DNA of 64,000 nt, taken from assembly GCF_000484535.1 (NCBI RefSeq), contig NC_022600.1, positions 3,596,001 through 3,660,000 of the forward strand, read 5' to 3'. The notes beneath the pieces were generated by a model. The model ran no database searches, was not told the origin of the DNA, and saw only the letters and a list, made by a program, of their open reading frames with translations. Made by a program: the position numbers and the translations under genes. Positions within the stretch are counted from its first letter, which is position 1. Every line of letters starts with the position of its first letter. This DNA comes from Gloeobacter kilaueensis JS1. Lineage in GTDB: Bacteria > Cyanobacteriota > Cyanobacteriia > Gloeobacterales > Gloeobacteraceae. Positions 28,731 to 34,393 of the stretch are shown in pieces.

Positions 28731-29747
28731 CTAGAACTGGCGCAAAAAACGCCAGTCGTTGGTGTAAAAAAGGCGGATGTCGCTGATGTCGTAGAGGAGC
28801 ATGGCGATGCGCTCGATGCCCATGCCCGCCGCAAAACCCTGCACCTTTTCTGGATCGTAGCCCACGGCCTGAAAGACATTTGGATCGACCATGCCACAAC
28901 CGGCGATCTCAAGCCAGCCGGTGTGGGAGCAGACGCGGCAGCCCCTGCCTCCACAGAAGCGGCACTGGACATCGACCTCCGCCGACGGTTCGGTAAAAGG
29001 AAAGTAGCTGGGCCGAAAGCGCACGGGCCGATCGCCGAACAGCTCCTGCGTAAAGAACGTCAGGGTGCCCTTGAGATCGCCGAAGGTGATCTCCTCATCG
29101 ACGGCGAGAATCTCGACCTGGTGAAAGACCGGCGAATGGCGATTGGTCACCTGGTCGCGGCGGTAGACCCGTCCGGGGGCACAGATGCGGATGGGCGGCT
29201 CGTTTTCCTCCATGTAGCGAATCTGGACGGAGGAAGTCTGGGTACGCAGGACCAGCCCGTCGCTCAGATAAAACGTGTCCTGCATGTCGCGGGCCGGGTG
29301 GTCGGCAGGTGTGTTGAGCGCCTCGAAGTTGTAATAATCTGTCTCGATCTGGGGGCCGGTGGCGACGGTGAAACCTAAGCCGACGAAGACATCGACGATT
29401 CGATCGGTGGTGGAGGTGAGCGGATGCAGCCGTCCGGGCGGCACGAAGCGGCCCGGCATCGTCACGTCGATGTGCTCGGCTTCCAGACGCCTGGCAATCT
29501 GCTGTTCTTCGAGATCGAGCCGCTGGGCTTCGAGCGCTTCCTCGATCCGGGCTTTGACTTTGTTGGCGAGGGCACCGACAAGCGGACGCTCCTCGGTGCT
29601 CAGACGGCCCATACCTCCCAAAATCGCCGAGAGCCTGCCTTTTTTGCCCAAAAAATCGACGCGGATGCGCTCCAGTACATTCAGATCCGCCGCACTGTGG
29701 ATCGCTCCCAGTGCCTCAAGTTGCAGTGCGTCAAGTTGATCTTTCAT
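28731..29747 (-). CDS. pheS: Phenylalanine-tRNA ligase alpha subunit
   Basis: 338 residues from the ATG at 29747. The N-terminal coiled coil (residues 1-85) binds tRNA. Class II synthetase motifs follow: [74 protein letters not shown], and [14 protein letters not shown]. The Cys group [17 protein letters not shown] is the family's variable loop. It charges tRNA-Phe together with PheT, whose gene is not in the window. It is the first gene of a pheS-fbp pair, an unusual coupling. Confidence 0.96.
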
Positions 29748-29860
29748 CGTGGGCTCATCCAGGCACCTGAACAATCTTATCGTGCCCCATGACCGCCTGA
29801 GCGCAGTGGTAGGATGGGAAAGCTTGTGATCAAAAGCGGTCCGGGAGCGGAGGGTGTGCC

Positions 29861-29885
29861 CTGCAGGCTCGGACGAGACCTGCAG
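29861..29885 (+). promoter_or_regulatory. Leader hairpin before the 51-residue basic protein
   Basis: CTGCAGG-CTC-GGAC-GAG-A-CCTGCAG: a 10-bp stem with a single bulged A and a four-base loop, ending 28 bases before the start codon at 29914. There is no T run, so it is not a terminator. Its place in the untranslated leader suggests post-transcriptional control or a binding site for the product, as in autogenous control of RNA-binding proteins; this is inference. Confidence 0.45.
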
Positions 29886-29913
29886 AAATTCGCACCGATA
29901 GGGAGACACAGGA

Positions 29914-30069
29914 ATGGCGAAGCGCCGCAACCAGAAAAAAGAAAAAGCTCTGCGCAACCGGGCCAACGCCCGCAAGTACCGCAAAAAACAGATGACTGGC
30001 CGCTACAACCGGCGCTCCGGGCCGGGAGGCGCTTTCGAGGACAACGATACCGGCGCTCAGGCTCCTTGA
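29914..30069 (+). CDS. Very small Lys/Arg-rich protein, probably RNA-binding
   Basis: 51 residues. The start has AGGA two bases upstream and GGGAG further 5'. The N-terminal half is extremely basic ([19 protein letters not shown], then RKYRKKQ), the C-terminal tail is Gly/Asp-rich and acidic. I recall similar short MAKRRN.KKEKA proteins annotated as hypothetical in other cyanobacteria. The composition recalls small ribosomal or ribosome-associated proteins, but no family can be assigned. It is divergent from pheS and 20 bases before the next gene. Confidence 0.72.
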
Positions 30070-30089: not shown

Positions 30090-31538
30090 ATGGAGCGGCA
30101 CTGGATAGCAAGATGGGCGCTCGTGCTGTTCCTGCTGGGGGGTATCCAGCTACCGCTCGTTGCCCAGACGCCCCCGGTACTCATCGACACAAATTTGCCG
30201 AGCGGCAACCTGAGCCAGGCGTATCGCTACACCTTTCAGGTGGTAGGCGGCACCGCCCCTTTTAGCTGGTCGGTGAGCAACGGCAATCTGCCCAGCGGCC
30301 TCAGCCTCGACGGTACGAGTGGGCGCTTGGAAGGAACGCCCAGTGCGACGACCGTCGCAACTTTCACCGTCCAGGTCCAGGACAGCAACGGTCAGACCGC
30401 CAGCCGCACCTTCAACTTGATCGTCACCACCAGCGGTTTTCAGCTGCAGCCGACCGCCGCAGAACTGGTACTTCTGCAGGGGCGCACCGCCAGTCTGCAA
30501 CTGCAGGTGATTGGCCAGCCCCAGACCAACAACCCGATCGGCTTCAGTCTGCTCAGTGCTCTGCCTGCCGGGGTGGTGGCGAGCTTTGAACCGGCACTTT
30601 TAAGCGGCGGCGACAGCAATGTCAATTTTGTAGCGGCGGCGGATACGAGTGCGGCGGCGGGTGTCTATCCCCTGCGCGTCTCGGGGGTGAGCCCGCCCGA
30701 TAGCCAGTACGCCTCTTTTAATCTGATCGTCCGGCCACCGCCCCCTGAGATCGCAGGCTTCAGCCCACCGGGAGGACTGCCGGGCACCAGCGTTACGGTT
30801 CGCGGAACGCAGTTGCAGACGGCAACCGCCGTTACTATTGGTGGCCTGCGCGCACCATTTACGGCCTCCGGCCCCAATCAGCTGCAGTTGAGCGTGCCGC
30901 GCGGCGCGAGGACTGGCCGGATCGTCGTCGTCACCCCCGCCGGAAGTGCCACCAGCGCTACGGACTTCCTCGTTCCGACCTTTGCCCTCAGTCTGCAACC
31001 GGGGGTGGCAACAGCACAGCCCGGTAGCCAGGTGCTGCTCAAGCTCGTCGCCACCGGCCAGGTCAACAATCTTGTCAACTTGAATGTGATCAACTTGCCC
31101 GACAGCTGGAGTGCCCAGTTCAATCCGAACTATCTCGACAGCCAGCACCGGCAGGCCAATTTGCTTCTGCAGGTACCGGCCACCTCGCCCCTCGGCAACG
31201 CAGCGATCACCGTGAGCGCGGGCATCGTCCAGGCAGCGGCGACCGTGCAGGTGCTGACTGCCCCGCCCCGGCTCACCCGGCTTTTTCCGGTGCAGGGTCC
31301 ACCCGGAACGGTGATCACCCTGTCGGGCCAGAATTTTCAGCCCGGCCTGCGGCTGCGCCTCGGTGCTCTCGAACTACCCATTTTCTCGATTAGTAGCAAC
31401 CGCGTTCAGGCCCAACTGCCAGACGGTGTGGCGAGCGGTCGCATTCAACTTGTCAACCCCGACGGCCAGACGGTGAGCACCAGCACGGTCTTCGCTGTCC
31501 TGCCGCGCACTGGCCCGCCGGTCCTGCCGCCGCCATAA
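30090..31538 (+). CDS. Secreted Ig-like/IPT-domain protein
   Basis: 482 residues. Signal peptide RWALVLFLLGGIQLPLVAQ. Residues about 28-112 are a putative Ig domain of the He_PIG type (GTAPFSWSVSNGNLPSGLSL, GRLEGTPSA, FTVQVQDSNGQ). Two IPT/TIG domains follow, about 210-290 (PEIAGFSPPGGLPGTSVTVRG) and 388-470 (PPRLTRLFPVQGPPGTVITL), separated by beta-rich segments. It ends in a proline tail (GPPVLPPP). No membrane anchor at the C-terminus. A structural or adhesive extracellular protein is likely; the ligand is unknown. Confidence 0.82.
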   Translation: MERHWIARWALVLFLLGGIQLPLVAQTPPVLIDTNLPSGNLSQAYRYTFQVVGGTAPFSWSVSNGNLPSGLSLDGTSGRLEGTPSATTVATFTVQVQDSNGQTASRTFNLIVTTSGFQLQPTAAELVLLQGRTASLQLQVIGQPQTNNPIGFSLLSALPAGVVASFEPALLSGGDSNVNFVAAADTSAAAGVYPLRVSGVSPPDSQYASFNLIVRPPPPEIAGFSPPGGLPGTSVTVRGTQLQTATAVTIGGLRAPFTASGPNQLQLSVPRGARTGRIVVVTPAGSATSATDFLVPTFALSLQPGVATAQPGSQVLLKLVATGQVNNLVNLNVINLPDSWSAQFNPNYLDSQHRQANLLLQVPATSPLGNAAITVSAGIVQAAATVQVLTAPPRLTRLFPVQGPPGTVITLSGQNFQPGLRLRLGALELPIFSISSNRVQAQLPDGVASGRIQLVNPDGQTVSTSTVFAVLPRTGPPVLPPP

Positions 31539-34354: not shown

Positions 34355-34393
34355 AAAATCCCCCCTTCTTTTTCCTAAGAAGGGGGGATTTTT
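34355..34393. terminator. Bidirectional intrinsic terminator
   Basis: A perfect 16-bp stem from AAAATCCCCCCTTCTT to AAGAAGGGGGGATTTT with a six-base loop TTTCCT. A-rich left and T-rich right ends give T runs on both strands. It ends the DUF760 transcript on the plus strand and can also stop transcripts arriving from the minus strand. Confidence 0.93.

Follow-up and report, generated by a model that had tools for sequence, protein, structure and literature searches.

The window analysed here is a stretch of 64,000 nucleotides belonging to the 4,724,791-base genome of a Gloeobacter strain. Between two longer reading frames it carries a short one of 51 codons, preceded by a Shine-Dalgarno-like site, a leader hairpin and a conserved upstream block (Table 1).

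Table 1. Features of the locus and of related loci. Positions are those of the window unless a locus (L) is named.
Feature	Position	Strand	Remarks
Small gene, probable member of the Ssr3189/Asl3888 family	29914..30069	+	ATG to TGA, 51 aa; predicted basic helix and acidic low-confidence tail
Shine-Dalgarno-like GGGAG	29901..29905	+	Ends 8 nt before the ATG of the 51-aa ORF
Leader hairpin	29861..29885	+	10 bp, one bulged base; folds alone at -16.6 kcal/mol
17-nt block TGGTAGGATGGGAAAGC (= TGNTAGNATGGGAAAGC)	29807..29823	+	Conserved in all five aligned Gloeobacteraceae loci
Divergent gene that looks like pheS (phenylalanyl-tRNA synthetase alpha)	28731..29747	-	Named by eye; start 29747 chosen by eye
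Downstream ORF, 20 nt away	30090..31538	+	Secreted-looking repeat-type (Ig/IPT-like by eye); not known as part of the system
Basic N-terminus joined to a zinc ribbon, examples	L120 1501-1770; L114 1492-1764; L116 1345-1608		

A preliminary description of this DNA had taken the 51-codon frame for a real gene with a clear ribosome site and a strongly basic N-terminal half, and these points held up well. Apart from the GGGAG motif itself, SD-like 4-mers located 4-20 nt upstream of the start are common in the leaders of the family, being present in 72 of the 80 distinct leaders versus 930 of 6,969 ATGs of the same loci. The frame is conserved in relatives, and residues 1-34 of its product have a net charge of +15 (residues 35-51, -3). 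Over the first 34 codons, the synonymous to nonsynonymous codon differences observed against four relatives were 7:2, 8:2, 8:4 and 13:6. Since these differences are mostly synonymous and relatives are found across the class, we read the frame as being under constraint at the protein level; a chance open reading frame is ruled out by the same codon pattern and class-wide conservation. The description had also warned that such a gene is easily missed by length cut-offs, which is fair as a caution, although the Synechocystis member has long been annotated as a protein of 55 residues (PMC2823733).

An alignment of 24 members of the family contains twelve invariant columns, every one of them inside the N-terminal 30 residues. 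Residues 1-34 of the family have a mean charge of +13.6; of 67 distinct members, 65 have a negatively charged tail. AlphaFold2, applied to the window protein and two relatives, predicted one helix spanning residues 3-27 with modest confidence (mean pLDDT 67.7, three sequences), with residues 38-51 at pLDDT below 50. The 51-residue protein matched no model in Pfam or NCBIfam, and the 24 family members gave only stray matches there (E > 0.04), none of them to a ribosomal family. In the PDB, phmmer returned no match for the window protein and the best profile match, to eukaryotic 60S eL29, was non-significant; neither solved ribosomal chains nor ribosomal profiles matched the window protein significantly. 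The likeness to eL29 comes down to a short stretch, KFLRNxRYARKHNKK beside KALRNxAYARKFRKR, with an E-value of 0.11 over only 17 columns. It is best taken as the resemblance of a basic RNA-binding segment, and homology to eL29 was dropped on this E-value.

With the single 51-residue protein as the query, 178 of 386 genomes of the phylum sample matched at E <= 0.1. A profile built from 24 family members (A1, threshold E <= 0.01) matched 177 of the same 386 genomes, which by a count of the rows divide into 170 of the 186 members of the cyanobacterial class and 7 of the 200 genomes of other classes. In the search of the class, 335 of 388 genomes matched, and among the matches listed two genomes (G593, G609) have two each and the others one. 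Among 20 genomes searched as close relatives, that of the window included, four others of the same family (G386, G388, G389, G390) gave strong matches, but G387, which belongs to the same genus and is 94% complete, had no match. Two genomes of the same order (G392, G393) contain a divergent form of the gene starting at GTG. Sixteen of the 186 class genomes in the phylum sample were without an A1 match. A broader profile (A3, E <= 10) was then run on 31 genomes that had given no match in the phylum, class or close-relative searches; 24 gave nothing and seven only weak fragments (best E 0.038), which rules out universal presence. The gene is apparently missing from several genera of f24 and from g2, g18 and g48. 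Given such clear absences, the protein is widespread yet dispensable.

Synteny, length and distribution agree in making this gene the Gloeobacter member of the Ssr3189/Asl3888 family, and it is on these three lines that we infer the identity. The convergent downstream neighbour is argH (named by eye) in 20 of the 22 loci of family f7; L027, one of the remaining two, ends at a contig edge, and L015 is a true miss. Argininosuccinate lyase (argH) is alr3887 in Anabaena/Nostoc 7120 (PMC4234267), so that asl3888, the next in number, is expected to be the family gene, and the argH neighbourhood agrees with this if f7, as we infer, is the Nostoc lineage. Ssr3189, a protein of 55 residues, is an unmarked entry among the proteins found in all cyanobacteria then sequenced (PMC2823733); one family member from our searches, L084, has exactly this length, and the class search likewise shows a single small gene in practically all cyanobacteria. 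The Gloeobacter copy differs in being shorter and in adjoining pheS instead of argH. A search of papers for peptide strings of the family found none. The gene would then belong to a known, poorly understood cyanobacterial RNA-binding family that has no curated family model.

Translation-related genes, all named by eye, recur next to members of the family: pheS adjoins the gene in all five Gloeobacteraceae loci, cca was seen in 7 genomes, and rpsB-tsf lies downstream in 4 picocyanobacterial loci. In those four (L096, L097, L111, L112) the gene stands upstream of a glycosyltransferase, rpsB and tsf, and the four share an unusual ending, TGTANNGGAAD. An ORF related to that at 30090-31538 follows the family gene in 4 Gloeobacteraceae loci and may form an operon with it. 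The 17-nt block conserved upstream of the gene is probably an extended -10 promoter; a consensus promoter scan found nothing in this region.

Experimental information on the family comes from PMC12475003, where Ssr3189 is reported to shift by -9.26 fractions (towards lower mass) after RNase, with a broadened profile, and to have gradient statistics of ANOSIM R 0.89, JSD 0.39 and rank 44. The protein shares its quadrant there with RaiA/LrtA, a ribosome hibernation factor; it is classed among the non-ribosomal candidates and scored below the SVM threshold for RNA binding. Asl3888 is stated in the same source to have been validated as RNA-binding, crosslinked in vivo, by PNK assay in Nostoc 7120, and the family is called a cyanobacterial signature protein. 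The RNase shift of the one presumed orthologue and the PNK crosslink of the other thus lend support, by way of orthologues, to the earlier suggestion, made from composition, that the window protein may bind RNA. Ribosome binding, the second half of that suggestion, is plausible but a guess; the literature that we looked through for a ribosome link or an association assay of the family contained neither.

We consider it probable that the gene encodes an RNA-binding protein of the Ssr3189/Asl3888 family, which places a basic helix on structured RNA and serves the ribosome or its assembly as an accessory, non-universal factor. The conserved N-terminus would most likely form one basic helix lying along the RNA, while the variable acidic tail would stay disordered and either limit non-specific binding or contact partners. 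An abundant structured RNA would be the most likely target, and rRNA is a first guess prompted by the size and composition of the protein and by its translation-related neighbours, the last being weak evidence because neighbourhoods differ between lineages. This tiny protein has persisted in most cyanobacteria from the time when Gloeobacter branched off, and it is reported to be RNA-dependent or RNA-binding in two model strains. Should it act on the ribosome, the cyanobacteria, from which chloroplasts arose, would have in it a component of translation peculiar to their lineage.

The same data might be read as those of a general mRNA or small-RNA binding protein, an RNA chaperone and not a ribosome factor. 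The RNase-dependent shift and the PNK crosslinking leave the RNA unnamed (PMC12475003), and a short basic helix with a tail predicted to be disordered would fit such a role; the analysis turned up no connection with an RNA-regulated pathway, and we regard this possibility as doubtful. Somewhat harder to sustain is a lineage-specific, stable ribosomal protein, bound in every ribosome at one fixed place on the rRNA, as are the small basic additional proteins of other lineages. Its size, composition and breadth of distribution would suit this, as would the pheS, cca and rpsB-tsf neighbours, but this gene-order evidence is anecdotal, since it changes from lineage to lineage. Moreover, the gene has been lost in whole genera, and the clear absences described above (16 of 186 genomes; 24 of 31 with nothing at E 10) argue against a core ribosomal role. 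With no significant PDB match, and with Ssr3189 not counted as ribosomal among the candidates of PMC12475003, we hold a stable ribosomal protein to be unlikely.

The leader hairpin claimed in the preliminary description is present, with one bulged base among its 10 bp, and autogenous control through it had been raised as a possibility. The 31-nt stretch chosen around the hairpin has a z of -4.07, and the whole 92-nt leader exceeds shuffled sequences in stability only mildly (z -1.88; 8 of 200 did equally well). Scanning the 64-kb window in 31-nt stretches at steps of 2 gave clusters that are at least as stable as the hairpin, 59 of them on the + strand and 58 on the other. The 59 clusters amount to about one per 1.1 kb, so that a hairpin of this strength in a given leader of ~90 nt is an event of about 8%. 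The two other Gloeobacter species that have it (G386, G388) keep the 5' arm unchanged, and their hairpin contains a G-U pair and differs in its upper and outer pairs; folding of the leaders of G389 and G390, from two other genera of the family, showed no such hairpin. Conservation across cyanobacteria, which had been suggested as a check on both the protein and the hairpin, therefore applies to the protein, the hairpin being confined to three Gloeobacter species. We take it for a genus-level feature apparently under some constraint, possibly at the level of DNA because it sits between divergent genes.

That the 51-residue protein binds this hairpin and thereby controls its own synthesis is accordingly a proposal with little support. 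Its retention in three species with changed upper and outer pairs would favour such control, but the comparison is effectively one of two sequences, hairpins of such strength abound in the GC-rich window, the leaders of the two other genera do without it and those elsewhere differ, and from its place between divergent genes it could serve as a site on the DNA or be part of the pheS gene's leader or control region. We therefore rate autoregulation through the hairpin as quite improbable. A nucleoid-type protein that acts on DNA and binds RNA only by virtue of its charge, which the composition by itself would allow, is more improbable still, given a sharp conservation pattern (E10, N15 and A19 included) that exceeds charge and the altered sedimentation of Ssr3189 upon RNase (PMC12475003).

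Other leader structures were considered as well. A scan of the whole window against Rfam gave no gathering-level match, and a pan-cyanobacterial leader hairpin is ruled out, as folds differ by lineage. RNAalifold on 23 leaders, mostly from argH-linked lineages, yielded nothing beyond a weak pairing that involves the ribosome site and lacks two-sided changes. In the argH-linked leaders L005-L030 (alignment A9), GTTGTTTATT is nearly unchanged just 5' of GAGGTGAAY, with which it could pair and so cover part of the ribosome site; none of these pairs shows changes in both partners. An attenuator formed by the inverted CTAGGC...GCCTAG of the argH-linked leaders was rejected, since several members lack one arm and the consensus fold omits it. 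Elsewhere in the window, positions 34359-34389 form a perfect 12-bp hairpin of -22.9 kcal/mol, much stronger than that of the leader, which may be a bidirectional terminator.

Relatives of the protein also appeared outside the cyanobacterial class, where the seven genomes matching A1 gave 11 matches at E <= 1. In eight of these (L113, L114, L116, L119-L123) the basic N-terminus is followed by a C-terminal CxxC-x17-CxxC zinc ribbon, and in L115, L117 and L118 it is not. Six of the eight ribbon proteins were compared with the family models, and each scored above the cut-offs of PF23477 (zf_Tbcl_2) and TIGR04272; L140, from an eighth sister-class genome found with profile A5, has a ribbon as judged by eye. 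Contamination amounts to 7% in two of the sister-class genomes, and single cases may therefore be wrongly placed.

Profile A5 was made from nine sister-class N-termini, with no cyanobacterial row and no ribbon. At E <= 0.01 it gave one match each in 169 of the 186 class genomes and matches in 10 of the 200 others, and in ten class genomes where the A5 and A1 places were compared by eye (G062, G360, G033, G045, G213, G008, G135, G129, G282, G346) they fell on the same gene. A reversed A5 decoy matched none of 26 genomes, which were chosen and not random. Comparison of A1 with A5 by hhalign gave a probability of 97.9 and an E-value of 4.6e-13 over 32 columns, a figure that is optimistic because the A5 rows had themselves been found with A1. 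The window family shares with the zinc-ribbon proteins the N-terminal motif K-x-E-K-x-x-R-N-x-x-x-A, of which K8, E10, K11, R14, N15 and A19 are unchanged over 13 sequences. In contrast to their two CxxC pairs with KPVxC, the window protein has no cysteine, and it and its class relatives end in a variable acidic tail in place of a ribbon.

The zinc-ribbon link of the cyanobacterial family is newly seen here, and the searchable literature yielded no earlier mention of it. It offers a handle on the origin of the cyanobacterial protein, which might be the trimmed descendant of a phylum-wide RNA-binder composed of helix and ribbon. In the photosynthetic class the ribbon would then have disappeared or given way to an acidic tail, with the helix turning into an accessory factor on the cyanobacterial ribosome; we put this history forward as a speculative and rather unlikely one. 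In L113, L116 and L121 the gene lies directly behind another small zinc-ribbon ORF. The frame at L115 1501-1599 encodes a minimal form of ~33 residues (MAKNNLKKEKAQRNKINADKYKKRTTSKFRSK), with neither acidic tail nor zinc ribbon.
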